Shown here: positions 4,941 through 51,571 of the stretch, piece by piece | Numbering within the stretch: position 1 is the first letter of the stretch | Layout of the letters: each line of letters starts with the position of its first letter | Assembly (NCBI GenBank): GCA_032622095.1 | Contig: CP136066.1 | Location: forward strand, 101,267,319 to 101,331,318 | Direction of reading: 5' to 3' | Length of the DNA: 64,000 nt | Source of the DNA: Siphonodentalium dalli | Lineage: Eukaryota > Mollusca > Scaphopoda > Gadilida > Siphonodentaliidae | Position numbers and translations under genes: made by a program | The notes under the pieces: generated by a model | What the model was told of the DNA's origin: nothing | Seen by the model: only the letters and a program-made list of their open reading frames with translations | Database searches by the model: none

Positions 4941-5212
4941 TAAACCCTTTCATGGCAGGAGCTATGCTGCATGATTCAGCATTAAAGATCCTGTGCCAGT
5001 GCATTTTGTTTTATATGCGAGTCTCCGATATCGGGAGCCTCTTATATATAAGAGAATACATTGGCTTACAAGGTCAAGTTATTAAATATTGTTAAACCAA
5101 TGTATTCTCTTATATATGCGAGGCTCCCTATGGGAGACTCGTATATATAAGAGAATGCATTGGCACAGGGTTTTCCCAAATTTTCAGGAAGCTCCAGTCA
5201 TGGAAGGGTTAA
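4941..5212. mobile_element. Family B TTAA MITE with paired hairpins
   Basis: Right end GGAAGGG then TTAA (5209-5212); left end CCCTTTCATGG preceded by TAAA, a mutated TTAA. Inside are two inverted hairpins built from CATTCTCTTATATATGCGAG-type arms. The TTAA site and CCCTTT ends suggest a piggyBac-type non-autonomous element. Confidence 0.75.
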
Positions 5213-5278
5213 GAATACCTTTATACCATCCTCTAAATTTAACCAATGTTTGTAAATCAGTCAGTTATAGTTTATGTT

Positions 5279-5665
5279 AGAATTTAATGCTTGGGACATG
5301 GTTGTTGCTCATGGGTCTTGTACCTGTAACCATGCAGGTATGTGGAGAATTCCTGTTTATTGGCCAGGGAACATACAGCCATTATCACATCCTATGAAGG
5401 TCAAAAATGTAATGCATAAACCCATTAGCCTGATGGGAGGTCAGCATCCAACAGAGATTCTCCAATTAATTGGAAGCATGAGGTCCTGACAGCCAACATC
5501 TCCCAACTCATCATTCTCCACTCCATTGCCACTCATCTAAGCAATCATTTAGCATACAGTATTCCACCATTCTATGGTTGTGGACCATGTTCTATTTTAA
5601 AGTGGTATATAAGCTTCAACTTTGGGAAAGAAATACCTTTAATAGGTTATTATGGAAATTGAAAA
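5279..5665. repeat. Family D repeat, uninterrupted copy
   Basis: About 390 bp beginning GAATTTAATGCTTGGGACAT. It matches 5838-6098 plus 6314-6465. At 5533-5541 it reads TCATCTAAG, the uninterrupted version of the site into which a family A element inserted in the sister copy. Confidence 0.75.
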
Positions 5666-5837
5666 AAAAAATATCAACAAATCTTGCAAAATCCATGTAG
5701 AGCTCCACTGTTTGTCGGTTGTTGAGGCGGTGACAAACTGTTTTTTAAAACTTTTTTTCCCCTCGCCTGCATCTACTTTTTTTTTGCACTTAAATATTCG
5801 TCAACCATGCTATAACACTGTCTTTGTGTGGCCTTAT

Positions 5838-6465
5838 GGCATAATTTAATGCTCGGGGCATGGTTGCTTCTGACAGAGTTTGTACCTGTAGCCAGGTATG
5901 CAGAGAATTCCTGTTGTTTGGCCAGGGAACATATGGCCATTATCACATCATGTGGAAGGTCAACAATCTAATGCATAAACCCATTAGCCTGATGGGAGGT
6001 CAGCATCCAGCATAGATTCTCCAATTAATAGAAAGCATGAGGTCCTGACAGCCCACATCTCACAACTCATCTTTCTCCACTCCATTGCCACTCATCTACT
6101 GTAATGCCCTAAGTAATCGACCCCTTAACCACAGCAGAGTTATGGGTAACTTTTCAGGATTTAGTCGGAAATATGGCTTGTTGCCATTCATAGGAAAGCT
6201 CTCACACTGAGAGCTTTCCTATGAATGGCAACAAGCCATATTTCCGACTAAATCCTGAAAAGTTACCCATAATTCTGATGTGGTTAAGGGGTCGATTATT
6301 TAGGGCATTAATGTATATTAAAGGAATCATTTAGCATATGGTAGTCCACCATTCTGTGGTTGTGGATTCCTTAGACCACCTTCTATTTTAAAGTGGCATA
6401 TACATGTAAGCTTCAACTTATTGAAAGAAATACCTCAGCTGATTTTTATACGGAAATTAAAATAA
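5838..6465. repeat. Family D repeat, interrupted by a family A MITE
   Basis: Same order of blocks as 5279-5665 (ATGCATAAACCCATTAGCC, GGTCAGCATCCA, CACTCCATTGCCACTCATC), then the family A insertion, then CATTTAGCATA and the remainder. Confidence 0.75.
6099..6313. mobile_element. Family A palindromic MITE, inside family D
   Basis: 215 bp, flanked by TA at 6097-6098 and 6314-6315. Termini CTGTAATGCCC and GGGCATTAATG are near consensus. Hairpin arms about 100 bp. Confidence 0.85.
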
Positions 6466-6577
6466 AAGATCGTCTTTTGTAATATTCCCATTTTATTTTT
6501 CCACTGAAAATGGCCATGACTCCAATGGCCCATGGAGCACAGGATATCATGATGTCATTTTAATAGCAGTGACGAGG

Positions 6578-6811
6578 TTAACCCTTTGAGTGCCAGGTCT
6601 GATTTTTGAATCAACCCATATACCCTGTGCCAATGCATTCTCTTATATATGCGAGTTGACCATAGGTCGCCTCGCATATATAAGAGAATGCATTGGCCTA
6701 ACAATTTTTTTTTAGTTTTTACAATTTTAATAATTCATTCTTATATTCTTAACAGACTTATTTTGTAGGTTTAGGGCCGATGAGATCGGCCCCTGGCACT
6801 CAAAGGGTTAA
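6578..6811. mobile_element. TTAA MITE with GAGTGCCAGG ends and one B-type hairpin
   Basis: Flanked by TTAA (6578-6581 and 6808-6811). Termini CCCTTTGAGTGCCAGG and CCTGGCACTCAAAGGG are perfect inverted repeats. After AATCAACCCATATA it contains one CTGTGCCAATGCATTC hairpin that is absent from the related element at 36215-36375. Confidence 0.8.
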
Positions 6812-7021
6812 AGCATTTTTAAATAATAAAAATTTGCACTGTCTCAAAAATCCATGCAGCTTCTATTAAATCGGTGCCTTATAATGTTTGTTATGTAGTC
6901 CCAGGCATGTACAAAGGGCAACACTTGGCATGTCTCGGAGACAAAAACATATAACATACAGCTGTGCCCAATATCTACCATATACATGTATATAATACAT
7001 CACCTTGTGTTCTCCAAGCTT

Positions 7022-7091
7022 AGATCATGCCATGAATCTCTACTCTGTCTAACGCCTGTTAGCCAGAGTATAGAGATTCATGGCATGATCT
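7022..7091. repeat. 70-bp palindrome
   Basis: AGATCATGCCATGAATCTCT on the left is mirrored by AGAGATTCATGGCATGATCT on the right around a short centre. The outer bases match the ends of the 521-bp foldback at 26008-26528, so this may be its deleted form. Confidence 0.7.
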
Positions 7092-7360
7092 ACATGTACC
7101 CCTAGCTCTGCCCCATAATTCACACCATTTATTTTCCAAAATGAAATTGCATGTCTAGGAAGTTCACAGACAAACTTGGAAAAAATCCATTGATGTGAGC
7201 TCTGTACCATTACCTTGTGGAGATCTTGACACTGTCATTTTACAGATACCTTCTACTGATCAATCTCTATATCATATGTCATATTCTCTTTGATACCTCC
7301 CGCCTGCTGTATTTCTGGTATTTGCATGCAAACATCAGTGGTCTGTTTGTTGATTGTCTA

Positions 7361-8333: not shown

Positions 8334-8599
8334 TTAACCCTTTCATGACGGGAGCTGTGCTGGTACAGCATTAAGATCATGTGCCAGTGCTTTCTCCTAT
8401 ATATATATGCTAGTCTACCGCAGGGAACCTTGCATATATAAGAGAATACACTGGCATACAAGGTCACGGTAAATATTGTTAGGCCAATGTATTCTCTTTT
8501 ATATGCGAGGCTCCCTATGGGAGACTCGCATAGATAAGAGAATGCATTGGCACAGGATTTTCGCAAAATTTCAGGAAGCTCCAGTCATGGAAGGGTTAA
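8334..8599. mobile_element. Family B TTAA MITE, full length
   Basis: TTAA at 8334-8337 and 8596-8599, left end CCCTTTCATGACGGG, right end CAGTCATGGAAGGG. Two hairpins in opposite orientation. Confidence 0.85.
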
Positions 8600-12028: not shown

Positions 12029-12044
12029 CTCATTTAATCTAATA

Positions 12045-12257
12045 CAGTAATGCCCTAAGTAATCGACTTCTTAACCACAGCAGAATTATGGGTAACTTTT
12101 CAGGATTTATTCGGAAATATGGCTTGTTGCCATTCATCGGAAAGCTCTCGGGGAGAGCTTTCCAATGAATGGCAACAAGCCATATTTCCGACTAAATCCT
12201 GAAAAGTTACCCATAATTCTGCTGTGGTTAAGAAGTCGATTACTTAGGGCATTACTG
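12045..12257. mobile_element. Family A palindromic MITE with arm-matched variants
   Basis: 213 bp, TA at 12043-12044 and 12258-12259. Both arms carry AAGTAATCGACTTC where the consensus has AAATAATCGACTCC. Confidence 0.88.
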
Positions 12258-12259
12258 TA

Positions 12260-12747
12260 TGCGAGCCCAGCAGGCATCATCCCCTTTCTCATGTCATCCA
12301 TGCATTGGTGTTGACCAATTACTGGGGATCATTATAATCAATATTCATAATTGTCACATTCATAGAAATGTATATACATGTATATATAGTTAATAGCGAG
12401 AAAGTGGTATGAACCAAATTAACCAAAATTTGCTTTTTTTCAAATAATTTTTGTTTGTTATTAGATACCTGAATTGTCCCGTAACACATAGTATATATCT
12501 GATACTCATGAAAATTTATTTAAAGGGGTACTGTATGCTAAATCCGGCCATTTATGGGACCATCTCCTTTAATACTCAATAGAATATATGCAACAAATAA
12601 ATGAATTTGTTCCATGGATTAGTTAAAAATGGACTCATGATCTCTATGACCGATGCAAAAAACATGGTAATTATAATATTAATGAGTTTATGACTCAGAC
12701 CAATTGGTGCCTATGATTTTGTCTGGTACCAACATTTGAGTTATTCA
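12260..12747. other. No gene seen
   Basis: AT-rich, nothing recognised. Confidence 0.45.
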
Positions 12748-14749: not shown

Positions 14750-15012
14750 TTATCCCTTTCTTTACTGGAGCTTCCTGAAATTTTGCGAAAACCCTGTGCC
14801 AATACATTGTCTTATATATGCGAGTCTCGCATATATATGCGAGTCTCGCATATATAAGAGAATGCATTGGCCTAACAATATTTACCTTGATCTTTTAAGC
14901 CAGTGGATTCTCATATATATGGGAGGCTCCCTATGGGAGAGAATATAAGAGAATGCAGTGACATAGGATCTTAAATGCTGCACCAGCGCAGCTCCCGTCA
15001 TGAAAGGGTTAT
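14750..15012. mobile_element. Family B MITE, flanked by TTAT on both sides
   Basis: Left end CCCTTTCTTTACTGGAGC, right end GTCATGAAAGGG. The tetranucleotide outside both ends is TTAT rather than TTAA. The first hairpin is rearranged (repeated GCGAGTCTCGCATATATA). Confidence 0.75.
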
Positions 15013-15335: not shown

Positions 15336-15883
15336 CTTTCCATCCACATTACATAAAAGTTTCCTTTTAGGAGATGATTTTTCAAAGTTATGTACACGAT
15401 AACATTTATAATATTACACTATATAGCTGGCATAAACGACATAAATGTCGTTCCAACCATACAACCATGTAAATGTGGTTCTATATATATATACCCCCCA
15501 AAGTGTTAAGACAGCACCCTATTTATCAGTCTCCTACATCAATGCCATAAGCGAATAGTAGCTAATGAAAATATGATTATAACAGATAGGGCATCTTTCT
15601 GGAGAAAATCGAAAACAGAAATATTTTATCAAGTTTATGTGAACATTTGTATCTCATATCTATCTTAGAAATACACATCTAGACACTAAATAGAATCAGG
15701 CAATGTTAGCAGTTGCTACCCTAATGAGTTATTTTGACAATAATGGCATTGAGTGTGTAGATCCAGGGGATAGAGCATGTATTCTGGTGATATGACTTAT
15801 ACTATTACCACTGATGGGCGGACATCTACACAGGAAAGCTTTCTATTCACCCATTACCATACAAATCCAGATATATGTAAATG

Positions 15884-16343
15884 CAAGCCTGAGTTTAGCA
15901 GGCTGTCATTTGCAGAATGAGGCCCTCAGAGGGTGACTTTGGTGATGCTATCCCGCACAGTGGGCTAGCATCACCAAATTCACCCTCTGGAGACCTCATT
16001 CTGCATGGCTTCATATGCTATGGGAGACATAGACTCAGATTGAAGTTCCCAAATGGTGAATATTGTGATGTACACCCATTGGGAATCTCGATTATGCAAT
16101 GTGTCGTCTGCCAATTTTGGGATATAGAGAAACTAAACTAAAAAAGAAATAGAATCTATGTGAAGAAGGTTCTATAGAAATTTGATAATAAAGAAACTTT
16201 CCAGAGAAACTGAGGCCTATAAAGCAGAATGAGGTCCCCAGAGGGTGAATATAGATATGCTAGCCTGCTATGTGGGATAGTGTCACTAATTCACCCTCTG
16301 GGGACCTCATTCTGCAAATGACAGGCAACTAAACTCAGGCTTG
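15884..16343. mobile_element. Family C MITE, full length (in duplication copy 1)
   Basis: 460 bp, ends CAAGCCTGAGTTTAG and CTAAACTCAGGCTTG. Flanks TGTAAATG and TGTAATCT are only partly alike. Hairpins at both ends. Confidence 0.75.
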
Positions 16344-16627
16344 TGTAATCTAGTTAGTTACTAGTTTATTTTATTTGCAAAGGATTGGTTCAGACCCATT
16401 AGTGCTTAAATGTGAATAATAGCTATATACTGTAGCAATAAATAATTTCGGAGGTAGTATGCCTAGGAAATTAATAATGGTATGAAGAAACATATTTGGA
16501 CAAAAAGTACTGTACACTGTACTTGGAAAAACATCTAAATGAAAGTGTCAATGACACTGTAGCTCAACTTGGAAAGGGAATAATTTCATGTGTTAAAGTC
16601 AATGGAGTGATTAGGAATGTGGAAAGT

Positions 16628-17600
16628 TGAAAGGCCTAGTTATGCAAAGAGTAAAATCTAAGATGGCCGCTGGCAGCCATGATTTTTTGCCGAATGACCC
16701 CAAAAAGACTCGTTCCCATTTACATGTCATTATTAACATCCAGTAAAAATTTCATGATGATCTGACAAAAGATACGACCTGTAGCCTGTGTCAAAGGATT
16801 TTATGATGATCAGACGAGCAGTATGACCTGTAGCCCACACCAATGGATTGAATTTTGAAATCCAAAATGGCCGCTGGTGGCCATGTTTTTTGTTGAATGA
16901 CCCCAAAATAACTCGTTCCCATCTACATGACAATGTCAACATTCATGACAAATTTCATAAAGATCGGACCAAAGGTACGACCTGTAGCCCCGCGCCAAAG
17001 GATTTAGTCATACAAAGAGTAAAATCCAAGATGGCTGATGGCGGCCAGGTTATTTGCCCGAATGACCCCAAAACGACTCGTTCCCATCTACATGTCATTG
17101 TTAACATCCATGACAAATTTCATGAAGATCTGACCAAAGCTACGACCTGTAGGCCGTGCCAAAGGATTTAGTCATGCATAGAGTAAAATCCAAGATGGCT
17201 GCTGGCGGCCATGTTTTTTGGCCGAACGACCCCAAAATGACTCGTTCCCATCTACATGTCAATTTTAACATCCATGACAAATTTCATGATGATCAGACAA
17301 GCAGTATGACCTGTAGCCCGCGTCAATGGATTGAATTTTGAAATCCAAAATGGCCACTGGTGGCCATGTTTTTTGGCCGAATGACCCCAAAACGACTTGT
17401 TTCCATCTACATGTCATTGTTAACATCCATGACAAATTTCATGAAGATCTGAACAAAGCTACGACCTGTAGCCCGCGCCAAAGGATTTAGTCATGCAAAG
17501 AGTAAAATCCAAGATGGCTGCTGGCGGCCATGTTTTTTGGCCGAACGACCCCAAAATGACTCGTTCCCATCTACATGTCAATATTAACATCCATGACGGG
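16628..17600. repeat. ~160-bp tandem array, six units (copy 1)
   Basis: Units start near 16657, 16861, 17025, 17189, 17344 and 17508 (steps 204, 164, 164, 155, 164). Each contains AAAATCCAAGATGGC, GAATGACCCCAAAA and TCGTTCCCATCTACATG. Short open frames rich in KSKMA and NDPK are by-products of the array. It ends in AATTGTTGACAGACACACGG. Confidence 0.9.
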
Positions 17601-17769
17601 AAATAAATTGTTGACAGACACACGGACGTCGGACGCCAATCCATGGCAATAGCTGAAACTTACAAAGTAAGTTGAGCTAATAATCATAGCACATTGTTTG
17701 TGCACAATCCCCTTTCCCCCCACATGGTGGGGGGTGCATGCAGAGGCCCTACCCCTTGCCCTCGACTGA

Positions 17770-19927
17770 TACCTGTAGTCTGGTCGTTGAAGCATTGGAC
17801 CTAGAACAAATTGTTTACAAGCTGTTTTTTGTGTCATATTGTCGGGCAGAATGTAGGGAACAACATATCCAAAATCCGCTAAAATCCGCTTTGTCTGTTG
17901 TTATCGGAAAATACTGAATTCTGCGGCAGGTGCTCCAATTAATGCCAAATTCGTAATAAATTGAAATATACACAAACATTGCTTAGTCGTAAACCATATA
18001 TGTTGAATATTTTTCCCAAAATGGCCACCAAAATGGACAAAATCGAATGAAATTTACATTTAGTGCAAAATTGAATAGCTAGTCCTATACGAGTGAACAA
18101 ACGCTCGAATATTGCGAGGAAGAATGACTACAAGTATAAGAGAAACTTTTGATTAGAGATGTACGAATTCTTTCTGATGTATCTCACGAGAGAGCAAGCG
18201 AAATCAGGGTCTTGTGGAACGGTTAAATCTGGACTTTTGGGCGTCCAGAAACGGAAAAATGCCGCAGTTTGATCTGTACCGCTAATCTTGAATCGTGTGA
18301 TATATGTGTAATTAAACAGCTAAACGGGATTTAGTAGGGATGTATTGACTATGCGGCCTTTCTCTAGAAGCAGAAATATATGTATTCAGAGCAGTCTCAC
18401 GAATGAGACCGATCACCATTTATTTTAATATCTACGGTATAAAACCTTAACAAATTAATTGCTATAAAACGGTATGAATTATGTTCATATTGTACTGGGG
18501 AGAATGCGTAGATTCACTTGTACGTGTCTCAAAATAGTAGTTATAGTTGCCTCAGATTAAGCAATAAAACTTGAATATTTCGCTTTTATTACAAGAATGC
18601 GTGATGGTGTACCATGAACTAAATTTATTAAATCACAAATGAGTACCATAGACTGTCTTCAATAAATTCAAAACTTGACCAAAATTGCCTACATAATTTG
18701 TGACAGAGACTGTGTTTATACCTGGAAATTATATTTGGTTGAATTCACCAAGGCCACATCTACGCGAAACTTACTACGTTGTCTTCAACCGCATCACCGC
18801 GTTTACCCATTTTCCATAATGTTACACATGTCTGTTGCACACAGAACCACAACTAACAATATTGGGTGAATGTTCAACGTTGGAATAACATCTTAAACGA
18901 TGATCACCTGATATTTAGCACGATTACGTAGGTGGTAATGGTAATATATAAACAAAAATATACTGAAAACTAACAGTGTGCATTGCGCTGTAGCTTATTC
19001 TAGTTGTAAAGTGGCCACTGAAGTTATTTTAACAAAATTGCCTACTAAGAAACCGGTTTGGTAGCAGAATGAAAATTAGTCTTACATACAATGCACTATG
19101 TACAGTCTCTTTGACCTGGTGAGATTCGGTGCTAATCCATTGAAGATATGAGTGTTTCTTTACAGTATAATAACCATTGCGACATACGTGTATCGTTTAT
19201 TATCACCAGGAGTGTTGACAATTCCGGAAATATAACTAGTATTTATACCTCTAGAGTATGCACTTAAATTTCGGCGTTGCATTCAATATTTAATCACCAT
19301 GCCGAATGAAACTACCATGCACTGTGAGACGAAACATTAGTTCGTGTGTTGCATGCACGAGCTATTTTTGTTTTGCCCAACAGTTGGATGTTGGATAAGC
19401 AGAACACCCAAACGTTAAAGACGTAAATCATTGGGGGGGGTTGACTTGCTGTGCATTGACCGATGATCCTTCAGATTGATCTGTATTAATGATGTGTGTA
19501 CCTTTAAAGATATTGAACAACCGACTTGTATATTGTCAATACGTATTTCACTCTTATGTGGTTACCCAATATGTTGCTTTCTACGTGGTATGGTTTGGAG
19601 TTGCGGCCATTGACAGCCATTTCATGGCCACGATTGTATAATTTTTTTATCCGTGTCACTATACTCGCTCCCCGCATTCTAATTTAACACAAACTGATAT
19701 AACGGCATAATTCTGATGCCACTATATATCGTATACTGACTTTGATGTAGTATAGACAACCATGTGGGACGCCATCGTGGATAACAAAGTTTCCCCAACG
19801 CAGATTTTTGCAGATTTTGGATATGTTGTTCCTGATGCTTTTCCGCGTCGAATGACACTGAAAACAGCTTGTAAACAATTTGTTCTAGGTTCACCTCAAA
19901 ATCGAGTCTCAACGACCAGACTACTGT
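17770..19927. mobile_element. 2.2-kb element with ~150-bp inverted ends (copy 1)
   Basis: Left TGTAGTCTGGTCGTTGA, TAGAACAAATTGTTTACAAG and CAACATATCCAAAATC recur inverted at the right (GATTTTGGATATGTTGTT, CTTGTAAACAATTTGTTCTA, CGACCAGACTAC). The interior is CpG-containing and has no recognisable transposase. The target duplication is unclear. Confidence 0.6.
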
Positions 19928-19939
19928 ACAAATGCATAA

Positions 19940-20310
19940 TTATATAGGAATCAGCTTGTCAGTCCGTTCGTCTTTCGTGGCATCCAGCTCTCCATTCCCA
20001 CATTTTTCCATCAATTTCGTTTAAGCTTGGCACAGATTTTTGTTCCATGGGAACCTGTGCACCTGCAATTATGAGGTTTGTGTGACTTTTTATTGTGGAG
20101 TTATCCTCCTTTTTCGACTTAGAAATTTTTTCTCAAGATGCAGCAAGAATTAGATGCATAATTTTGTCTGAGCTTTTATTACTACATTTTTCAGTCAATT
20201 TTTTAAAACTTGGCACAGATATTGCATTGGAACACATGCAAAGCAATTATGAGGTTCTTCCGACTTTTTTTTTTGAGTTATCCCCATCTTTGTGGGGATG
20301 GTTTCTGTGA
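19940..20310. repeat. Family F dispersed non-coding repeat (copy 1)
   Basis: Starts AATCAGCTTGTCAGTCCGTT, followed by repeated AACTTGGCACAGAT-type and CCATGGGAACCTGTGCACC blocks also seen at 49642-50241. Confidence 0.6.
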
Positions 20311-20739
20311 TGATCTCTTTTACTGTAGATTTTCATATGAAAATTGTTGTAAATTATCTCAACTTTAATATATGTACTTCAAAGTGTTAAGGTTAATGTC
20401 TCCACAGTTTTGACATCTGAAATATACATAGGGTGCATATGTTGACACTGAAAGCTACATGGTGTCAGACTGGAAACTAACATGGACTGTCTGCCCAGAA
20501 ATGAAATTAATGTTCATTCACTGAAAGTCTGCATGCAGGTATTTGGTGCAGGTGCCTATATCAATGGAGAAAATACAATAAAATATGGGGGGAAGGGTAA
20601 TGGGGGCACAACTTGTTTTTAGTGCCTTTTCTGTGTTGATGATCAGTTCCTCTGCCAAAAACAATGCTGTTTTTGGATGTTCTGCACAGGAAAGCTTTCT
20701 ATTCACCCATTACCATACAAATCCAGATATATGTAAATG

Positions 20740-21199
20740 CAAGCCTGAGTTTAGCAGGCTGTCATTTGCAGAATGAGGCCCTCAGAGGGTGACTTTGGTG
20801 ATGCTATCCCGCACAGTGGGCTAGCATCACCAAATTCACCCTCTGGAGACCTCATTCTGCATGGCTTCATATGCTATGGGAGACATAGACTCAGATTGAA
20901 GTTCCCAAATGGTGAATATTGTGATGTACACCCATTGGGAATCTCGATTATGCAATGTGTCGTCTGCCAATTTTGGGATATAGAGAAACTAAACTAAAAA
21001 AGAAATAGAATCTATGTGAAGAAGGTTCTATAGAAATTTGATAATAAAGAAACTTTCCAGAGAAACTGAGGCCTATAAAGCAGAATGAGGTCCCCAGAGG
21101 GTGAATATAGATATGCTAGCCTGCTATGTGGGATAGTGTCACTAATTCACCCTCTGGGGACCTCATTCTGCAAATGACAGGCAACTAAACTCAGGCTTG
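20740..21199. mobile_element. Family C MITE (in duplication copy 2)
   Basis: Identical to 15884-16343. Confidence 0.75.
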
Positions 21200-21483
21200 T
21201 GTAATCTAGTTAGTTACTAGTTTATTTTATTTGCAAAGGATTGGTTCAGACCCATTAGTGCTTAAATGTGAATAATAGCTATATACTGTAGCAATAAATA
21301 ATTTCGGAGGTAGTATGCCTAGGAAATTAATAATGGTATGAAGAAACATATTTGGACAAAAAGTACTGTACACTGTACTTGGAAAAACATCTAAATGAAA
21401 GTGTCAATGACACTGTAGCTCAACTTGGAAAGGGAATAATTTCATGTGTTAAAGTCAATGGAGTGATTAGGAATGTGGAAAGT

Positions 21484-22456
21484 TGAAAGGCCTAGTTATG
21501 CAAAGAGTAAAATCTAAGATGGCCGCTGGCAGCCATGATTTTTTGCCGAATGACCCCAAAAAGACTCGTTCCCATTTACATGTCATTATTAACATCCAGT
21601 AAAAATTTCATGATGATCTGACAAAAGATACGACCTGTAGCCTGTGTCAAAGGATTTTATGATGATCAGACGAGCAGTATGACCTGTAGCCCACACCAAT
21701 GGATTGAATTTTGAAATCCAAAATGGCCGCTGGTGGCCATGTTTTTTGTTGAATGACCCCAAAATAACTCGTTCCCATCTACATGACAATGTCAACATTC
21801 ATGACAAATTTCATAAAGATCGGACCAAAGGTACGACCTGTAGCCCCGCGCCAAAGGATTTAGTCATACAAAGAGTAAAATCCAAGATGGCTGATGGCGG
21901 CCAGGTTATTTGCCCGAATGACCCCAAAACGACTCGTTCCCATCTACATGTCATTGTTAACATCCATGACAAATTTCATGAAGATCTGACCAAAGCTACG
22001 ACCTGTAGGCCGTGCCAAAGGATTTAGTCATGCATAGAGTAAAATCCAAGATGGCTGCTGGCGGCCATGTTTTTTGGCCGAACGACCCCAAAATGACTCG
22101 TTCCCATCTACATGTCAATTTTAACATCCATGACAAATTTCATGATGATCAGACAAGCAGTATGACCTGTAGCCCGCGTCAATGGATTGAATTTTGAAAT
22201 CCAAAATGGCCACTGGTGGCCATGTTTTTTGGCCGAATGACCCCAAAACGACTTGTTTCCATCTACATGTCATTGTTAACATCCATGACAAATTTCATGA
22301 AGATCTGAACAAAGCTACGACCTGTAGCCCGCGCCAAAGGATTTAGTCATGCAAAGAGTAAAATCCAAGATGGCTGCTGGCGGCCATGTTTTTTGGCCGA
22401 ACGACCCCAAAATGACTCGTTCCCATCTACATGTCAATATTAACATCCATGACGGG
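21484..22456. repeat. ~160-bp tandem array (copy 2)
   Basis: Identical to 16628-17600. Confidence 0.9.
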
Positions 22457-22625
22457 AAATAAATTGTTGACAGACACACGGACGTCGGACGCCAATCCAT
22501 GGCAATAGCTGAAACTTACAAAGTAAGTTGAGCTAATAATCATAGCACATTGTTTGTGCACAATCCCCTTTCCCCCCACATGGTGGGGGGTGCATGCAGA
22601 GGCCCTACCCCTTGCCCTCGACTGA

Positions 22626-24783
22626 TACCTGTAGTCTGGTCGTTGAAGCATTGGACCTAGAACAAATTGTTTACAAGCTGTTTTTTGTGTCATATTGTCG
22701 GGCAGAATGTAGGGAACAACATATCCAAAATCCGCTAAAATCCGCTTTGTCTGTTGTTATCGGAAAATACTGAATTCTGCGGCAGGTGCTCCAATTAATG
22801 CCAAATTCGTAATAAATTGAAATATACACAAACATTGCTTAGTCGTAAACCATATATGTTGAATATTTTTCCCAAAATGGCCACCAAAATGGACAAAATC
22901 GAATGAAATTTACATTTAGTGCAAAATTGAATAGCTAGTCCTATACGAGTGAACAAACGCTCGAATATTGCGAGGAAGAATGACTACAAGTATAAGAGAA
23001 ACTTTTGATTAGAGATGTACGAATTCTTTCTGATGTATCTCACGAGAGAGCAAGCGAAATCAGGGTCTTGTGGAACGGTTAAATCTGGACTTTTGGGCGT
23101 CCAGAAACGGAAAAATGCCGCAGTTTGATCTGTACCGCTAATCTTGAATCGTGTGATATATGTGTAATTAAACAGCTAAACGGGATTTAGTAGGGATGTA
23201 TTGACTATGCGGCCTTTCTCTAGAAGCAGAAATATATGTATTCAGAGCAGTCTCACGAATGAGACCGATCACCATTTATTTTAATATCTACGGTATAAAA
23301 CCTTAACAAATTAATTGCTATAAAACGGTATGAATTATGTTCATATTGTACTGGGGAGAATGCGTAGATTCACTTGTACGTGTCTCAAAATAGTAGTTAT
23401 AGTTGCCTCAGATTAAGCAATAAAACTTGAATATTTCGCTTTTATTACAAGAATGCGTGATGGTGTACCATGAACTAAATTTATTAAATCACAAATGAGT
23501 ACCATAGACTGTCTTCAATAAATTCAAAACTTGACCAAAATTGCCTACATAATTTGTGACAGAGACTGTGTTTATACCTGGAAATTATATTTGGTTGAAT
23601 TCACCAAGGCCACATCTACGCGAAACTTACTACGTTGTCTTCAACCGCATCACCGCGTTTACCCATTTTCCATAATGTTACACATGTCTGTTGCACACAG
23701 AACCACAACTAACAATATTGGGTGAATGTTCAACGTTGGAATAACATCTTAAACGATGATCACCTGATATTTAGCACGATTACGTAGGTGGTAATGGTAA
23801 TATATAAACAAAAATATACTGAAAACTAACAGTGTGCATTGCGCTGTAGCTTATTCTAGTTGTAAAGTGGCCACTGAAGTTATTTTAACAAAATTGCCTA
23901 CTAAGAAACCGGTTTGGTAGCAGAATGAAAATTAGTCTTACATACAATGCACTATGTACAGTCTCTTTGACCTGGTGAGATTCGGTGCTAATCCATTGAA
24001 GATATGAGTGTTTCTTTACAGTATAATAACCATTGCGACATACGTGTATCGTTTATTATCACCAGGAGTGTTGACAATTCCGGAAATATAACTAGTATTT
24101 ATACCTCTAGAGTATGCACTTAAATTTCGGCGTTGCATTCAATATTTAATCACCATGCCGAATGAAACTACCATGCACTGTGAGACGAAACATTAGTTCG
24201 TGTGTTGCATGCACGAGCTATTTTTGTTTTGCCCAACAGTTGGATGTTGGATAAGCAGAACACCCAAACGTTAAAGACGTAAATCATTGGGGGGGGGTTG
24301 ACTTGCTGTGCATTGACCGATGATCCTTCAGATTGATCTGTATTAATGATGTGTGTACCTTTAAAGATATTGAACAACCGACTTGTATATTGTCAATACG
24401 TATTTCACTCTTATGTGGTTACCCAATATGTTGCTTTCTACGTGGTATGGTTTGGAGTTGCGGCCATTGACAGCCATTTCATGGCCACGATTGTATAATT
24501 TTTTTATCCGTGTCACTATACTCGCTCCCGCATTCTAATTTAACACAAACTGATATAACGGCATAATTCTGATGCCACTATATATCGTATACTGACTTTG
24601 ATGTAGTATAGACAACCATGTGGGACGCCATCGTGGATAACAAAGTTTCCCCAACGCAGATTTTTGCAGATTTTGGATATGTTGTTCCTGATGCTTTTCC
24701 GCGTCGAATGACACTGAAAACAGCTTGTAAACAATTTGTTCTAGGTTCACCTCAAAATCGAGTCTCAACGACCAGACTACTGT
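22626..24783. mobile_element. 2.2-kb element with long inverted ends (copy 2)
   Basis: Same as 17770-19927 apart from the two homopolymer length changes. Confidence 0.6.
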
Positions 24784-24795
24784 ACAAATGCATAA

Positions 24796-25166
24796 TTATA
24801 TAGGAATCAGCTTGTCAGTCCGTTCGTCTTTCGTGGCATCCAGCTCTCCATTCCCACATTTTTCCATCAATTTCGTTTAAGCTTGGCACAGATTTTTGTT
24901 CCATGGGAACCTGTGCACCTGCAATTATGAGGTTTGTGTGACTTTTTATTGTGGAGTTATCCTCCTTTTTCGACTTAGAAATTTTTTCTCAAGATGCAGC
25001 AAGAATTAGATGCATAATTTTGTCTGAGCTTTTATTACTACATTTTTCAGTCAATTTTTTAAAACTTGGCACAGATATTGCATTGGAACACATGCAAAGC
25101 AATTATGAGGTTCTTCCGACTTTTTTTTTTGAGTTATCCCCATCTTTGTGGGGATGGTTTCTGTGA
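24796..25166. repeat. Family F dispersed repeat (copy 2)
   Basis: Identical to 19940-20310. Confidence 0.6.
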
Positions 25167-26934: not shown

Positions 26935-27342
26935 TTAAAGACATATTATGGATCTCATCGGCCCTAATTTACAGTCTGTAGAGTGCCAGGGGCCGCTGAG
27001 ATCGGCCCTAAAAAAATTAAAATTCTTTACTTTTTTTTTTGGGTATGCTTAAGCATGCTATAGCGAATTTAAAAACAAACTGGATAAGTCCTTAGGGGCA
27101 TGTTATAACTCAAAACTATCACCAAGTATTCATAGTAATAATTTTGATGCCCATGAAAAACGTAAGATTCCCTGGCACTAAACCTACAAAATAAGCCTGG
27201 CACTGAAAGAGTTAATTAATATATAGGAGTGACAATGTGTGTTGCCAATTTTGATATAATATTTGTAAAATAACTACGTTGAGCAAGATTATTCTCCATT
27301 TCTATTATGATCACCCTACCGAAGTGTACCACATCACTTTAA
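26935..27342 (-). mobile_element. Family J TTAA element, interrupted by a decayed TTAA MITE
   Basis: TTAA at 26935-26938 and 27339-27342. Ends AGACATATTATGG and CCACATCACT match the J copies at 52757, 54568 and 61180. The middle (about 26951-27214) is replaced by sequence related to the element at 6578 (GATCTCATCGGCCCTA, CCTGGCACTGAAAGAG then TTAA). Confidence 0.7.
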
Positions 27343-28349: not shown

Positions 28350-29970
28350 GGTTCTTTCAGATAATTTAATCGGATAATAAAAACTTTCAATGAATCCTAC
28401 CTTTGTGTTCATTGTCATTCACATTGATAGTCATTATATGCAATACCTGAAAATGGAAAGTGATAGTAAAATTCTGATACAAAGATGAAGATGAATTTAT
28501 TTGGTTTAATACTTTCCTGATGAGAGCTTCGTTGCATGGTGCAGTATTAAAGATCTTGTGTCAGTACATACTCTCATATATACAAGTCTCCCATAGGGAG
28601 CCTCGCATATATGAGAATTCACTGGCTTACAAGGTCAAGGTAAATATTGTTAAGCCATGTATTCTCTTTTATATGTGAGACTCCCTATGGGAGACTCGCA
28701 TCTATAAGAGAATGCATTGGCATAGGATTTTTGCAAAATTTCAAGAAGCTCCAATCATGGAAGGGTTAACAGATAAAAAGAAAAGGATTCTATTTTATCA
28801 TTGAACTGAAGAAAGGCAATAGTAAAATTTTCATACAAATGTAAAAGATAAACTTGTGCCAAGCAATGCACAGTACATACTATATCCCAGTGTACTGCAC
28901 AATGCAGCATACCCCTATCAGTATGCACATGTATCTGTTATATCTCAAGCCGCTGAGCAAAATTTATAATTCTATTATTGTAGTAAATGTACATATATGC
29001 ATACACAATATATTTTCGAGCTTTTAATAATGGGTTTTTTTTCCTGATAATTTAATGGCATAATAAGAAATATTCAATACATCCTTCATGTACCATACCT
29101 TCTGTGTTCATTGTTAATATTCACATTATTTGTAATACCTGAAAATTATATGGGTTAAAGGGGAAATAAATCATTAAATTTTATTAAATTTCATGATTAT
29201 AGAGAAGAAAAGCGATAGTTCGTAAACTTTTCTTAGAAATTTAAGAGATGAACTTGTGCCAGCAGTGTACATACATTTGATAATCTAAAGCTGGCACAGA
29301 ACATATCTTTATATCCCGGTGTACTGCACAATGCAGCATACCCCTATACTATCAGTATGCTCTTAGGGCTCGAGTCACTGTTTATTCTCAACATCTCACA
29401 GTTGTACTCTATGAACTATTTTGAAGAGAATTCTGCAAAAAAATGTTTTTACGCTTTTGAAAATCCTGTCATTATATCATTACTTTTTAATGAAATGGAA
29501 TGTGTACTAAATTTATAAATAATTCTATTGGAGTATGCATACACAATTTATTTTATTGCTTTAATGGTGTTTTTATGATACTGTAATTTCATGGCATAAT
29601 AAGAACTATTCAATACATCCTACTTGTACAGTACCTACTGTGTTCATTGTTAATATTCATGTTATTTGTAATACCTGAAAATGACATTGTATTATATGGG
29701 TTAAGGGGGAAATAAAGCATAAAATGTTATTACATTTGATAGAGAAGAAAAGCGATAGTTCGTAAACTTTTCATGGAAATTTAAGAGATAAACTTGTGCC
29801 AGCCGAGTACATACATTTGATAAACTAAAGCTGGCACAGTACATATCTTTATATCCCGGTGTACTGCACAATGCAGCATACCCCTATACTATCAGTATGC
29901 ACATCTCTCATAGCTCGAGCCGCTGTTTATTCCCATTATCTCACAGTTGTACTCTCTGTACTTTTCAGTT
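28350..29970. repeat. Promoter-proximal tandem repeats, about three copies of ~540 bp
   Basis: Copies at about 28350-28960 (holding a family B insertion), 29030-29430 and 29560-29970. Shared blocks are TTTAATGGCATAATAAGAA-type, CTGTGTTCATTGTTAATATTC, AGATAAACTTGTGCC and GTGTACTGCACAATGCAGCA followed by TACCCCTAT. The last copy ends just before the presumed promoter. Confidence 0.8.
28506..28769. mobile_element. Family B TTAA MITE, inside tandem repeat
   Basis: TTAA at both ends (28506-28509 and 28766-28769), two hairpins. The left end is mutated (TACTTTCCTGATGAG). Confidence 0.8.
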
Positions 29971-31802: not shown

Positions 31803-31985
31803 TTGACCCTTTCATGACTGGAGCGTCCTGAAATTTCGTGAAAACCCTGTGCCAATGCATTCTCTTATATAAATGAGTCTCCCATGATAGGGAGCCTCAT
31901 ATATATAAGAGAATACACAATATTTACCATGACCGTGTAAGCCAGTGCATTCTCTTATATATACAAGGCTCCCCATGGGATTGCA
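31803..31985. mobile_element. Family B MITE, right end lost
   Basis: Left end CCCTTTCATGACTGGAGC (preceded by TTGA) and first hairpin present. Truncated within the second hairpin. Confidence 0.75.
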
Positions 31986-32139
31986 CTGGAACATCGCCTT
32001 TACTGCACTATTACTGCTCCCACTAGTAAGGGGCATCTGTGAGGGCTCAACACCGCCTTGCCCACAACTGGTGTCTGTACAAATATACAGGGGAATTTGG
32101 AAATGATATTTATGCACCCCTCAACAGTGGAACCAGCCT

Positions 32140-32885
32140 GGGGGTTTCAAAATGGGGAAAAGTCACTTCTCCCCGTTTAGTTATTTGGGAGAAGTGGACT
32201 GTTATCAGGGAGAAGTAACAATGGCTGAAGTTCTATTTCTACCCCATGATCACCCTTCTATTGTTCTGTTCAATAAGTATTATAAAACAAGAGCCCATTT
32301 ATAAAACCATCATGAGTAAGAACACCATTATAATCAACAAACATAGTTTAACCCTTTACCCAACAGAACGGCCCTGTGCCAATGCATTCTCTTATATATG
32401 CGAGTCGACCATAGGTCGCCTCGCATATATAAGAGAATGCATTGGCTTAGCACATTAAAAGTTATAAAATTGTTAAAGAATGTAAGAAAAAATGGTAAAA
32501 AGTGTTAAAAAAAGATTTTTTTTAGGCCAATGCATTCTCTTATATATGCGAGGCGACCTATGGTCGACTCGCATATATAAGAGAATGCATTGGCACAGGG
32601 CATAACTGTAACTACCACAATGTGGTCAAGGAGCCGGTTCCAATGATATCCATATTTGTATGGTTCTATTGAGACAGACCGAAGATATTTTAGGCTGTTG
32701 AAGCTTTATTTGGCCGGTTTTGGCCGTTTTGTTGGGTAAAGGGTTAAGTATTCTGTTGGGACATATGAATAGTGGTATATGAGAGAGAATTCACTTCTCC
32801 CTGGGAAAGAAATATGGAGAAGGTACACATTTTAGGGAGAAGATGTCTCCCAGGTTGCCCTCTAGACTGATCCCTGCCTCAACAT
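32140..32885. repeat. Repeat M, third copy, interrupted by a TTAA MITE
   Basis: Shares CAGGGAGAAGTAACAATGGC, AATAAGTATTATAAAAC, AAGAACACCATTATAAT and GTTGGGACATA with 35590-35787 and, inverted, with 41800-42120. The right part (32748-32885) matches 41800-41930 inverted. Confidence 0.75.
32348..32747. mobile_element. TTAA MITE with ACCCAACAGAACGGCC ends and paired B hairpins
   Basis: 400 bp with TTAA at both ends (32348-32351 and 32744-32747). Ends CCCTTTACCCAACAG and TTGTTGGGTAAAGGG. Inside, two near-perfect hairpins of the CTGTGCCAATGCATTC type in opposite orientation. Inserted in repeat M. Confidence 0.88.
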
Positions 32886-34669: not shown

Positions 34670-34879
34670 CAGTAATGCTCTAAATCGACTCCTTAACCAC
34701 AGGATAATTATGGGTAACTTTTCAGGATTTAATCGGAAATATGGCTTGTTGCCATTCATCGGAAAGCTCTCAGTGAGAGCTTTCCGATGAATGGCAACAA
34801 GCCATATCTCAGACTAAATCCTGAAAAGTTACCCATAATTCTCCTGTGGTTAAGGAGTCGATTATTTAGGGCATTACTG
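34670..34879. mobile_element. Family A palindromic MITE, in left arm only
   Basis: 210 bp with TA at 34668-34669 and 34880-34881. The inverted sister arm lacks it (TTGTAGGTTTTG around 43120). Confidence 0.88.
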
Positions 34880-36039: not shown

Positions 36040-36215
36040 TTGAACCCTTGACAGGAGCTTCCTGTTCATTGGCCTGATAATATTTACCTTGACCTTAATA
36101 TAAGCCAGTGCATTCTCTTATATTTGGAGGTTCCCTATGAGAAACTCACAAGAGAATGCTCTGGCACAGGATATTTAATGCTGCATCTGCGTAGCTCCCA
36201 TCATGAAATGGTTAT
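36040..36215. mobile_element. Family B MITE, one hairpin lost
   Basis: Left CCCTTGACAGGAGC, right CATCATGAAATGG then TTAT. It abuts the next TTAA element. Confidence 0.65.
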
Positions 36216-36375
36216 TAACCCTTTCAGTGCCAAGTCCGATTTTTGTATCAACCCATATTTCCTTGATCATTTTTCAAATTTATTGATTATAATAATGTGA
36301 TACATTGATGGAAAGAGCTCTTATCAAGGAAATATGGGTTGATACAATAATCGGACATGGCACTGAAAGGGTTAA
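36215..36375. mobile_element. TTAA MITE with CAGTGCCAAG ends, no hairpin insert
   Basis: 161 bp, TTAA at both ends. CCCTTTCAGTGCCAAGTCCG mirrored by CGGACATGGCACTGAAAGGG, and ATCAACCCATATTTCCTTGA mirrored further in. Same family as 6578-6811 but without the AT-rich hairpin. Confidence 0.85.
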
Positions 36376-41421: not shown

Positions 41422-41525
41422 ACCCTGCCATGACTGGAGCTTCCTGAAATTTTTTGAAAACCATGAGCCAATACAATGCATTTTGTTAAAACCCTGTGCC
41501 AATGCATTCTCTTATATAAGAGATA
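41422..41525. mobile_element. Family B MITE remnant
   Basis: CCATGACTGGAGCTTCCTG and CCCTGTGCCAATGCATTC with half a hairpin; the rest is lost. Confidence 0.6.
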
Positions 41526-43175: not shown

Positions 43176-43592
43176 AGTAATGCCCTAAGTAATCGACTCC
43201 TTAACCACAACATAATTATGGGTAACTTTTCAGGATTTAGTCGGAAATATGGCTTGTTGCCATTCATCGGAAAACTCTCGCCGAGAGCTTTCCGATGAAT
43301 GGCAACAAGCCATATTTCTGACTAAATCCTGAAAAGTTACCCATAATTCTGCTGTGGTTAAGGAGTCGATTACTTTATAGGGCATTACTATATGTCATTT
43401 GCAGAATGAGGTCCATATGAATCTGGAACTGTGATTGAGATTTGATTTGTATACATGTAGGATGACGGGCAATGCAGAATGAGGTTCTCAGATGGTGAAT
43501 TTAGTGATGCCAGTCTGCTGTGTTGGGTAGCGTCACTAAAATCAACCTCTGGGAACCTCATTCTGCAGATGTCAAGCACCATATTTTGAGGC
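43154..43592. mobile_element. Family C MITE, interrupted by family A
   Basis: Begins CAAGCCTGCAAATAGTATG, is split by the family A insertion, then resumes TGTCATTTGCAGAATGAGG (43394) and continues to GTCAAGCACCATATTTTG. Confidence 0.75.
43175..43390. mobile_element. Family A palindromic MITE, inside family C
   Basis: 216 bp, ends TAGTAATGCCC and GGGCATTACTA, TA at 43173-43174 and 43391-43392. Confidence 0.88.
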
Positions 43593-43995: not shown

Positions 43996-44230
43996 TTAAC
44001 CCTTTCATGACTGGAGCTTCCTGAATTTTTGCGAAAACCCTGTGCCAATGCATTCTCTTATATATACGTGTAAGAGAATGCATTGGCCTAACAAAATTTA
44101 CTTGATCTTGTTAGCCAGTGCATTGTCTTATATATGTGAGGCTCTCTATGGGAGACTTGTATATATAAGAGAATGCACTGGCACATGATCTTTAAGCTGC
44201 ACCAGCCAGCTCCCTTCATGAAAGGGTTAA
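43996..44230. mobile_element. Family B TTAA MITE, full length
   Basis: TTAA at both ends (43996-43999 and 44227-44230). First hairpin shortened, second intact. Ends CCCTTTCATGACTGG and TTCATGAAAGGG. Confidence 0.85.
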
Positions 44231-47468: not shown

Positions 47469-48315
47469 GGGTAGGGTTCTCTATTCCGAAGGTTCGCTAT
47501 TCCGAAGGTTCACTAATCCGAAGGTTCACTAATCCGAAGGTTCACCAATCCGAAGGTTCACTATTCCGAAGGTTCGCTATTCCGAAGGTTTTCTATTACA
47601 CCCCAATACACCCCAATCTAATATCTAATTTGTCCCGGATGTCGGTTATTAATAGCAAGAAGACAGTATCAGTTTATCATTTTAATATTATAGAAAGTTG
47701 AAAACACAATGACTGAAATAAACTACGAGTTAGAGATGCATTCTACCCGAACTGGCAATCTGTACTTGAAAGAAACATCAACATTAAAATCAATACAAAG
47801 TCAGAATTGCAGTTAGGTCCATTCAGCGGTATTCTGCTATACAGTAAGTTATAGCGCTCCAGTATTGATTGACCGTAAGAGCCCCACTGTTATAGTCCGC
47901 CTTTAGCATTTGGGACATTATATTAATCAAAATAACTCCTATGTAAATCATTTATAAATCAGATGATATATTGAAGTTATATAGACGTAAAATAACTAAA
48001 ATATGTCGTTTAGTCCTCAGCCGATAGACGACATATATGTCGTTCTACTCGCCAAAGGGTTAAATCTCAAGGAAAACAAAAATCACATTTATTTTTTTAA
48101 TGTTTTAAGTTATTTCCTTTCATAAGAGTCTTCGTACTAAAGAACCCTCTCAATATACTTTAGAATATAGAATTAACTTTTAAAATAACAAAAACCTTCG
48201 GAATAGCGAACCTTCGGAATAGTGAACCTTCGGAATAGTGAACCTTCGGATTAGTGAACCTTCGGATTAGTGAACCTTCGGAATAGCGAACCTTCGGAAT
48301 AGAGACATGTTCCCC
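47469..48315. mobile_element. Foldback-type element with 7 x 16-bp arrays at each end
   Basis: 847 bp, flanked by a perfect 8-bp direct repeat TGACCAGT (47461-47468 and 48316-48323). The left array (47477-47588) and right array (48195-48306) each hold seven 16-bp units of the type TTCACTAATCCGAAGG, inverted to each other and with nearly the same order of variants. Its 606-bp centre has no recognisable gene. The tandem-repeat ends recall Drosophila foldback elements, which make 9-bp duplications. Confidence 0.85.
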
Positions 48316-48541: not shown

Positions 48542-48755
<214 letters not shown>

Positions 48756-49140: not shown

Positions 49141-49351
49141 TACTGAGTACTGGCATGTGTTCTAAATTGTTCTGTGTTCAATTTTGATCTGCACTGTACT
49201 GCCAGTCTATTATTCTCGGTGGAAGGGGAATAACTCTTATCTCCTAGTTTTTAATTTTTATGTATTTTGGATAAATAAAGAGGGAAGCCTTGGGGGTGAA
49301 TCTGAGAATCTCTTATCACTTGGTGGACACTCCTAGGACATCCCTGTTCTA

Positions 49352-49509
49352 CAGTAATACCCCTAAATAATCGACTCCTTAACCACGGCAGAATTATGGG
49401 TAACTTTTCAGGAATTAGTCGGAAATACGGCTTGTTGCCATTCATCGGAAAATCCTGAAAAGTTACTCATAATTCTGCTGTGGTTAGAAGTCGATTATTT
49501 AGGGCATTG
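49352..49509. mobile_element. Family A MITE, inner right arm deleted
   Basis: 158 bp from CAGTAATACCCC to TAGGGCATTG, TA on both sides. Confidence 0.8.
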
Positions 49510-49556
49510 TATAACCTGGTGGAACATATATATATATATTTGTTTTTTGTTATGGT

Positions 49557-49576
49557 GGGGGGGGGGGGGGGGGGGA
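49557..49576. repeat. Poly-G tract
   Basis: About 19 G, preceded by an AT dinucleotide tract (49527-49540). Confidence 0.8.
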
Positions 49577-49641
49577 GGGGTGTTATTTCATGCCAAAAAT
49601 AGTCAATAACGCTGATTCTGTATAGAAATAATCGGGGGACT

Positions 49642-50241
49642 CATTATTATACCCCCCGCAACGAAGTTAGGGGGGGGGTATACTGGAGTCGGCTTGTCCG
49701 TCCGTCCGTCGTCCGTCTGTGGACACAAATTTGTCCGGAGTTTTTCTCAGTCGTTTTTTTTATCAATTTCCGTGAAACTTGGCACAGACATCAACCACCA
49801 TGGGAACCTGTGCACCTGCGATTATGACGTCTGTCAGACTTTTTTTGGTGTAGTTATCTCCCCTTTTTCGACTTAGAAAACTTTCGCAACATGTATACTT
49901 TTGTCCGAGCTTTTATTCCTACATTTTTCGGTCAATTTTTAAAAAACGTGGCGCAGATATTTAGTACCATGGGAACCTGTGCACCTGCGATTATGACGTC
50001 TGTCCGACATTTTTTGTGTGGAGTTATTCCCCTTTTTTTTCGCAACATACATAATTTTGTTCAAGCTTTTATTCCTACATTTTTCGGTCAATAGGTTTAA
50101 GATTAGGGTTATGGTTGTACACCTGCAATGGGAACTGTTATTTTATTATTTTAACTAATATTTACTGACAAGTGAAACATCTTAGTATTTTTAAAACAGG
50201 GGGGTATCCGTAGTCCCATTGGGACAGTCACACCTCTAGTT
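49642..50241. repeat. Family F dispersed non-coding repeat, fullest copy
   Basis: Begins near CCCCCCGCAACGAAGTTAGG, then GTCCGTCCGTCCGTCGTCCG, two copies of CCATGGGAACCTGTGCACCT each followed by GCGATTATGACGTCTGTC, and ends CCCATTGGGACAGTCACACC plus TCTAGTT. No coding frame. Confidence 0.7.
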
Positions 50242-50838
50242 AAAGTGGGAATTTAATAGATGGAAATACATTTCAAGGCTTCACATATATTTGATAAAAT
50301 ATACCATACAGATATTAAGTCTTCCATATTAAATGAGACTTTTCTCATCCATTTATGATATTCAAATCTCATTTCCTGCACTATCTACCAAGTTTATATG
50401 GGATATTGGATCTTGATAGAAGTGATGGATTGTTAGAAGAATTCATTTCCCAATTTGAATGGTCTCTGCTCCAGGGAAAATGACATCATGAAATTAATTT
50501 TCTTGAAATATTCCACAAGTCCTGTCATGTCTATAACCCAGTTTGCTGCCAGATTGCGTTGTCAAGACAACTGAACATTGAAACCAAAGAGATTGATGGA
50601 CATGACACTATCACATTCGCTCATTGTTTGCACAACTGATGATGCAGAAAATAGCCGAATCCCCATAAACTTTGGACACAATCTTGGCAACTCGGAATTT
50701 TGATTAGTTTCAGTAATGGTTTTATTTGTAGAGCTGTTTTTCCCTCACTGATAGATTACGTGTGAATAAAAACGATGAGTACTATCAGCTACTGCTGAAT
50801 GTGATGCCTTTCTTTAGCTCTGAGGAGGCTTTTCCTCT
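50242..50838. other. No gene seen (intron 2)
   Basis: Nothing recognised. Confidence 0.45.
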
Positions 50839-50846
50839 GTCATTAA

Positions 50847-51291
50847 CAAGCCTGCAAATAGCATGTGTGTCATTTGCAGAATGAGGTCCCCAGAGGGTGA
50901 ATTTAGCGACTATCCCGCGCAGTGGGCTACCATCGCCAAACTCACCCTCTGGGAACCTCATTCTGCTTAGGCCCTCAACTGCTATGGTAGACCTAGGATC
51001 AGATTGAAGTTCCCCAGTTGAAATTGGTGATGTTCACCCATTAGACACCTCGATAATATGCATTTTATCTTCTGCAAATTAGGGATACAGAAACTGAACA
51101 GAAGGGAAAACGTAACTAAAAACAATGTTAATTTGATACTGTAGATACTTCCCAGAAGATGAGGCATAAGCAGAATGAGGTCTCAAGAGGGTGAATTTGG
51201 TGGTGCTAGCCCGCTGTGTGGGGTAGCATCACTAAATTCACCCTCTGGGGATCTCATTCTGCAAATGACAGACACACTATTTGCAGACTTG
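50847..51291. mobile_element. Family C MITE, full length
   Basis: 445 bp, ends CAAGCCTGCAAATAGCATG and CACACTATTTGCAGACTTG. Flanks GTCATTAA and CTCATTAC agree at 6 of 8 positions. Confidence 0.78.
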
Positions 51292-51310
51292 CTCATTACT
51301 GTAGCCCTGT

Positions 51311-51571
51311 TTAACCTTACATGATTGGAGCTTCCTGAAATATTGCGAAAACCATGTGCCATGCATTCTCTTATATATGCGAGTCTGCCATAGAGAGCCC
51401 AGCATATATTAGAGAATATATTGGTCTAACAATATTTACCTTGACCTTGTAAGCCAGTGCATTCTCTTATATGTACGAGGCTTCCTATGGGAGACTCGCA
51501 TATATAAGAGAATGGACAGGTACAGGCTCTTTAATGCTGCACCAGCACAGCTCCCATCATGAAAGGGTTAA
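51311..51571. mobile_element. Family B TTAA MITE, full length
   Basis: TTAA at both ends, left end CCTTACATGATTGG (one C lost), right end CATCATGAAAGGG, two hairpins. Confidence 0.83.

Follow-up and report, generated by a model that had tools for sequence, protein, structure and literature searches.

A long hairpin module shared by short TTAA elements with different termini in the scaphopod Siphonodentalium dalli

The stretch of Siphonodentalium dalli DNA analysed here, called the window, covers 64,000 nucleotides (assembly GCA_032622095.1, contig CP136066.1, positions 101,267,319 to 101,331,318 of the forward strand) and includes several families of short elements whose ends consist of TTAA plus CCCTTT or a near variant. 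Three terminus types, designated B (CCCTTTCATGA), C (CCCTTTGAGTGCCAGG) and D (CCCTTTACCCAACAG), bear a hairpin of about 81 nt, referred to below as the module, and the way in which this module came to be shared is the subject of the present report. The scope is this single 64-kb window throughout, and all counts of presence or absence of the module apply to it. Ten members of family B (CCCTTTCATGACTGGAGC) can be recognised, some of them in a worn or truncated state; C (6578-6811) and D (32348-32747) are each represented by one copy, and an additional element with C-type termini, C2, is devoid of the hairpin. These elements and their modules are located as follows, the start or end coordinates of B4, B5, B6 and B9 being set partly by eye.

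4941..5212, minus strand: B1, with modules as an inverted pair (left module 5090-5170, minus strand; right module 4989-5072, plus strand)
8334..8599, minus strand: B2, inverted pair, both ends TTAA
14750..15012, plus strand: B3, inverted pair, 19-bp tandem duplication at the centre of the left module
28506..28769, minus strand: B4, inverted pair, limits partly by eye
31803..32000, plus strand: B5, left module at 31845-31919 and partial right module at 31980; right end not found, end point 32000 by eye
36040..36214, plus strand: B6, degenerate, right module only (36098-36171, minus strand), start by eye
41422..41523, plus strand: B7, left-end fragment with a partial module (41492-41523)
43996..44230, plus strand: B8, inverted pair, centre of the left module lost
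51311..51571, plus strand: B9, inverted pair, start by eye
55016..56321, plus strand: B10, inverted pair, right arm interrupted by a TTAA element at 55223-56284
6578..6811, plus strand: C, terminal inverted repeat (TIR) CCCTTTGAGTGCCAGG, TTAA ends, single module
6623..6703, plus strand: module of C, with CCCTGT edge
32348..32747, plus strand: D, TIR CCCTTTACCCAACARAACGGCC, modules as an inverted pair
32372..32452, plus strand: D1, left-type module of D, perfect stem
32453..32519, plus strand: spacer of D, without match to the B spacer
32520..32600, minus strand: D2, left-type module of D, perfect stem
36215..36375, plus strand: C2, C-type terminus, hairpin-less, TIRs of 53 bp at 96%

The B, C and D elements look like small non-coding piggyBac-type (TTAA) miniature inverted-repeat transposable elements (MITEs), piggyBac and piggyBat being themselves TTAA elements. 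TTAA is present at both ends of B2, B8, C, C2 and D, in which the termini read CCCTTT and 14-16 of the first 16 bases pair, and it is gone from one or both ends of several worn B copies. Complete copies of B, C, C2 and D measure 161-400 bp, the longest open stretch within any of these elements is 83 codons, in B2, and the five open reading frames (ORFs) overlapping B2, B3, B5, B10 or E, the element nested in B10, gave no match in Pfam at E 0.1. TTAA-flanked inverted termini (at least 13 of 16 positions matching, no more than 1500 bp apart) form 25 pairs in the window, against no pair in any of 10 dinucleotide shuffles; CCCTTT types account for only five of the 25, the 20 others belonging to another palindromic repeat.

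The 18-mer by which the hairpin was recognised in the initial annotation has 22 matches in the window at up to 3 mismatches, and a search with a profile of the module (nhmmer) retains 21 places, 18 in B, one in C and two in D. Twenty of them have E values of at most 1.5e-8 in one orientation, the weakest accepted place is the 32-nt fragment at 41492-41523 (E 9.9e-7), and the single noise match, at 60246-60267 (E 4.9, 3.3 bits), lies within an element of a further family, F. Every module copy (21/21) adjoins the flanks of B, C or D elements. The occurrence of the hairpin under three terminus types, announced in that annotation, is thus borne out with these 21 copies, all three types lying where it had placed them. 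The range that it gave, 4941-51571, does contain such elements but needs to be extended to the tenth B element, at 55016-56321.

The 27-bp stem of the module is separated by a T.C mismatch from a second stem of 5 bp, which is closed by an ATA loop. The outer end of the module reads CCCTGT, replaced in most B-right copies by TCCTGT or a variant, the 27-bp stem starts with GCCAATGCATTCTC, and the return arm ends with GGC followed by YTAACA or similar. Watson-Crick pairing is complete in D1 and D2 (32/32), reaches 31 pairs plus one G.T in C, and ranges from 23 to 30 pairs in the 11 B modules counted. Left and right modules of B are distinguished in most copies by recurrent differences, CCAATGC..GCATTGG on the left versus CCAGTGC..GCACTGG on the right, and by their inner edge, which is CTAACA on the left and TTACAAG on the right. 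When folded as DNA, five of six modules sampled among the 21 are better than all 200 shuffles, with z from -12 to -15 for C, D1 and D2 and weaker values for two B copies (-9.3 and -5.3), the worn left module of B9 (51351-51431) being not distinct (z -1.9, matched by 9/200 shuffles). The centre of the palindrome looks unstable: it is lost in the left module of B8 (44038-44093) and in the right module of B10 (55153-55220), and duplicated as a 19-bp tandem in the left module of B3 (14792-14877).

Five placements of the module can be compared, B-left, B-right, C, D1 and D2. On the outer side, similarity between placements ends 3-10 nt past the stem base, and in 25 of 36 pairs after 5-7 nt, i.e., at CCCTGT. 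Within B, it runs on for 34-40 nt (limit 40) among four B-left copies and for 13-18 nt among three B-right copies. These alignments establish that the outer edge of the module is sharp. The inner edge is ragged, with 3 to 13 nt shared between placements; relative to the four B-left copies, C shares 7-13 nt, D1 6 nt and D2 7-9 nt, and the B-left copies share 12-40 nt among themselves, or 12-14 nt where an indel of B8 intervenes. Outer edges were listed for 20 modules and inner edges for 18, and edge extensions were tabulated for 10 and nine, respectively. In all five placements, the outer end points to the nearer terminus, from which it is separated by about 24-50 nt in four of them and by 147 nt in D2, but the five are not independent draws because the pairs may be inverted duplicates.

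The modules of C, D1 and D2 display a mutual identity of 96-98%, versus 82-96% with B-left and 74-84% with B-right modules, the top values against B-left coming from the shortened copy of B8, aligned over part of its length. Such comparisons establish a common origin for the modules of B, C and D. The flanks behave otherwise. Once TTAACCCTTT is set aside, the local-alignment scores of C with B, D with B, and C with D all fall within the shuffled range (p 0.076 to 0.99; 500 shuffles per comparison, B8 alone standing for B), whereas the flanks of C and C2 give a score of 54 that none of 500 shuffles attains. C2 matches the left arm of C at 91% over 44 bp, the match stops one base short of the module, and no continuation of C2 past the module was found in C (score 25, p 0.65). 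As C2 has the left arm of C and no module, the same terminus type exists both with the hairpin and without it; the comparison of termini with and without it, recommended in the initial annotation, thus gives both states for type C within the window. An exchange of the module between families, as the same annotation had suggested, is supported since 96-98% identity between the C and D modules stands next to flanks without detectable relationship and since type C exists in both states.

A phylogenetic tree of 19 of the 21 modules (the partial copies at 31980 and 41492 being left out) separates the eight B-right modules from all others on a branch supported at 86/98 and places C, D1 and D2 together with B-left. 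The donor of the module was probably a B-left-like element, a weak assignment because the tree has no starred branch and two alternative topologies, discussed below, stand in the approximately unbiased (AU) test.

The statement that two terminus types carry the hairpin as an inverted pair is true of B and D, although the two pairs look unlike in make-up. The comparisons support, without being decisive, the view that the D pair either arose anew, by inverted duplication of one left-type module, or was homogenised by conversion. These readings are preferred because D1 and D2 are both of left type and the B spacer is missing from D. A transfer of the whole pair of B into D was also considered and is disfavoured, D1 and D2 being of left type and the spacer unrelated (AU p 0.085).

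Taken as a whole, the data are fairly probably explained by a discrete hairpin cassette of about 81 nt that was copied between, and duplicated within, MITE families of differing termini. The cassette would move as a unit, the termini, flank and spacer of the donor staying behind. Its copying would proceed by break repair or template switching begun at the palindrome, and would be triggered by cruciform cleavage or by gap repair after excision, with no transposase acting on the hairpin. Cruciform cleavage and template switching readily occur at palindromes, and a repair copy at such a break could bring the hairpin without its flanks. Once installed, the cassette would persist since its arrangement, with the CCC end outward and usually subterminal, would be at least compatible with transposition, and it may bind a piggyBac-type transposase.

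Several points weigh against this explanation. Just one copy of C and one of D are present in the 64 kb, and C2 might conceivably have arisen by deletion. In the tree, which is without any starred branch, forcing D2 with B-right costs 12.7 log units and is not formally rejected (AU p 0.085), and neither is a B-left clade excluding C and D (AU p 0.19). The D pair could also be an old left/right pair homogenised later by conversion, a possibility disfavoured because D is without the B spacer. The inner edge is less clear than the outer one, the B-left copies themselves running on by only 12-14 nt at the B8 indel, and a unit with defined ends would account for the recurrent outer edge no less well than repair breakpoints falling at random. 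No transposase was found in a Pfam scan that took in 25 of the 285 ORFs of at least 55 aa, no family scoring above its cut-off. Finally, no purifying selection on the module is seen within B because the left module (identity 0.878) is no more conserved than the flanks (0.873 and 0.854) and the spacer (0.869), and the right module (0.801) is less so. Better conservation of the module than of its surroundings was thus looked for in seven of the ten B elements (B5, B6 and B7 being left out) and not found.

A rather unlikely alternative is that the module is kept for a function, as a subterminal palindrome bound by piggyBac-type transposases. A TTAA MITE acquiring it would be better mobilised, perhaps by several transposases; exchange would then be random, and selection on mobility would enrich the chimaeras. 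The outward polarity in five of five placements and the short distance to the terminus in four of them, D2 excepted, are in agreement with this role. It is attractive because the ends of piggyBac and piggyBat hold palindromes bound by two cysteine-rich domains, according to the excerpted text of PMC11707139, and a role in transposition was suggested for the internal region shared by coral MITEs in the main text of PMC2872659. Double changes at stem pairs also point in this direction: 13 cells at five pairs are doubly changed, compared with a shuffled mean of 5.5 cells, and the covariation score is 0.117 versus 0.068, neither value being reached in 500 shuffles. This count used 14 of the 21 modules, those with large indels or reduced to fragments (B3 right, B5 left, B5 right, B6, B7, B8 left and B10 right) being out. 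However, the number of stem pairs with a double change is ordinary, as it is reached by 179 of 500 shuffles, and kinship alone can beat such shuffles. Strong covariation was therefore rejected as a proof of function, there being few inherited double changes and an ordinary pair count. Moreover, the module is missing from types E and F and from C2, and its conservation within B does not exceed that of the flanks. A bolder version, which we hold to be unlikely, would make the module a trans-family cassette, palindromic, polar, usually subterminal and with a defined outer end, that was repeatedly loaded onto TTAA MITEs and made them mobilisable. MITE families would in that case evolve by swapping a common “engine mount” and not by decay from one autonomous parent.

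It is improbable that the hairpin is a mobile element of its own, a mobile palindrome with a CCCTGT end entering TTAA MITEs. Its outer edge is nearly identical in five placements, its polarity is constant and the stems of C and D are nearly perfect, as would be expected of such an element, but none of the 21 copies lies away from the flanks of B, C and D. Target duplication at the module edges was not detected above chance in the seven cases considered (C, D1, D2, the D pair, B2 left, B9 left and B1 right), in which the longest direct repeats, looked for up to 3 nt from the edges, measure 2-3 nt. At 500 random 81-bp stretches, direct repeats are 0-7 nt long, mostly 2-3, and there is no sign of target duplication because the edge repeats are as short as those at random places. 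The ragged inner edge also argues against autonomous mobility, and the hairpin is too short to code for a transposase. The suggestion in the initial annotation that the hairpin might itself be mobile has consequently found no support in the window.

Common descent, in which B, C and D would be the point-mutated offspring of one hairpin-bearing element, is very improbable. TTAA and CCCTTT are common to the three types, and the C flank gives a borderline score against the B-left flank (p 0.076). Nevertheless, the C and D modules diverge by 2-4% beside flanks without detectable homology, and the hairpin-less C2 has C’s own left arm, which contradicts this scenario unless C2 is a deletion derivative and the C and D flanks evolved far faster than the modules. 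Such a descent, which the initial annotation had itself raised, is thus not borne out by the flank comparisons and C2. As for the palindrome being a source or substrate of small RNAs (siRNA or miRNA-like hairpin), with its spread among MITEs as a consequence, the RNA stems of -53 (C) and -57 (D1) kcal/mol, with z about -13 (four of the 21 modules folded), would suit it, but any long palindrome folds so and no Rfam match reaches its gathering score in the window, which makes this proposal highly unlikely.

Among known systems, the closest is the CMITE group of Acropora corals, described in the main text of Wang et al. (2010, PMC2872659) as small non-coding TTAA elements with TIRs of about 13-14 bp that mostly start with CCCTTT. 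An internal region of about 75 bp is common to several terminus families of CMITE; it is better conserved from family to family than the TIRs, and its origin was left open by the authors (PMC2872659). The piggyBac-type motif quoted there is a TIR of about 12-19 bp starting with CC[C/T]T (PMC2872659). The elements of S. dalli are like CMITE, as far as its main text describes it, in their TTAA site, their small size and lack of coding content, their CCCTTT-type TIRs and an internal block common to differing TIRs and better conserved than these. They differ from it in that the shared block is here a palindrome with outward polarity, that one terminus type is found with and without the block, and that the block stands alone or in inverted pairs, two of which differ in build. 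The main text of PMC2872659 contains none of the words hairpin, palindrom* and secondary structure, and the published CMITE 60-mer has no match in the window at E 1e-3. Judging from these comparisons, the phenomenon is the same and the sequence is different; seen here in addition are the hairpin, which that text does not mention, its presence or absence under one terminus and the two kinds of pair.

In piggyBac and piggyBat, palindromes near the ends are transposase sites of about 14-19 bp, as given in the excerpted text of PMC11707139. The present module likewise usually stands near the element end, but it is a long palindrome of 81 nt. Wuneng and Microuli, TTAA elements of different type cited in PMC2872659, have a common 7 bp motif; sharing across types is similar there, but it concerns about 81 nt at 96-98% identity in S. 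dalli. Only CMITE fits the phenomenon among the titles and abstract openings covered by the literature search, from which subscription papers were mostly absent. Foldback-type elements such as Galileo, in which an inverted-repeat architecture is reshaped by recombination, resemble the present elements, whereas the termini and target site of Galileo differ. Galileo belongs to the P superfamily (PMC4168063).

How MITEs acquire internal sequence is unsettled. The hairpin makes this question testable, i.e., whether a block moves by itself, is exchanged through repair or is retained by selection as a transposase site, because it is compact, has a sharp outer edge, is missing from an element with the same left arm and occurs in two pairs of seemingly different origin. 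Should the module prove to help several transposases mobilise elements, it would represent a shared cis-element of a new kind.

The following TTAA elements and one further region of the window are free of the module.

55223..56284, plus strand: E, 1062 bp, termini CTCTTTCA / TTAACTCTTTCA, no module, nested in B10
60213..60457, plus strand: family F, terminus TTAACCCTTTCTGTAC, no module except the 3.3-bit noise match
26951..27215, minus strand: region with short blocks of the C right arm, not one collinear stretch, no module

Within B10, E has TTAA on both sides, and B9 shows a single TTAA at the same point, i.e., an unoccupied site, so that a TTAA target duplication is seen for E. Relatives of F were located by BLAST at 4904, 25622, 37060, 53678 and 54277, with about 70-78% identity, and their ends, where seen, are TTAACCCTTT or TTAACCCATT.

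Exact patterns of the hairpin have no match in the viral_contigs (viruses) and genome_contigs (prokaryotes) collections. The same holds for the B terminus, the C terminus and another repeat of the window in viral_contigs, and for that repeat in genome_contigs; few matches were expected because these collections hold viruses and prokaryotes. The D region gave no match to phages in a “distant” blastn search.

The window also contains a second family of long palindromes (CCACAGCAGAATTATGGGTAACTT), with arms of 90-111 bp set 1-5 nt apart and many copies, at 449-667, 6094-6318, 12042-12260, 34683-34863, 43187-43375 and other places. A perfect direct repeat of 3612 bp (15829-19440 / 20685-24296, spacing 4856 bp) ends where a G run changes length, and further 100% stretches are found at the same spacing of 4856 bp (19671-19970 / 24527-24826 and 20152-20223 / 25008-25079). 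This repeat may have arisen recently by segmental duplication, or it may be an artefact of the assembly. A 16-bp tandem array is present twice in inverted orientation, at 47475-47590 and 48193-48302, with a TTAACCCTTTGGCGAG end between the two at 48054-48063.

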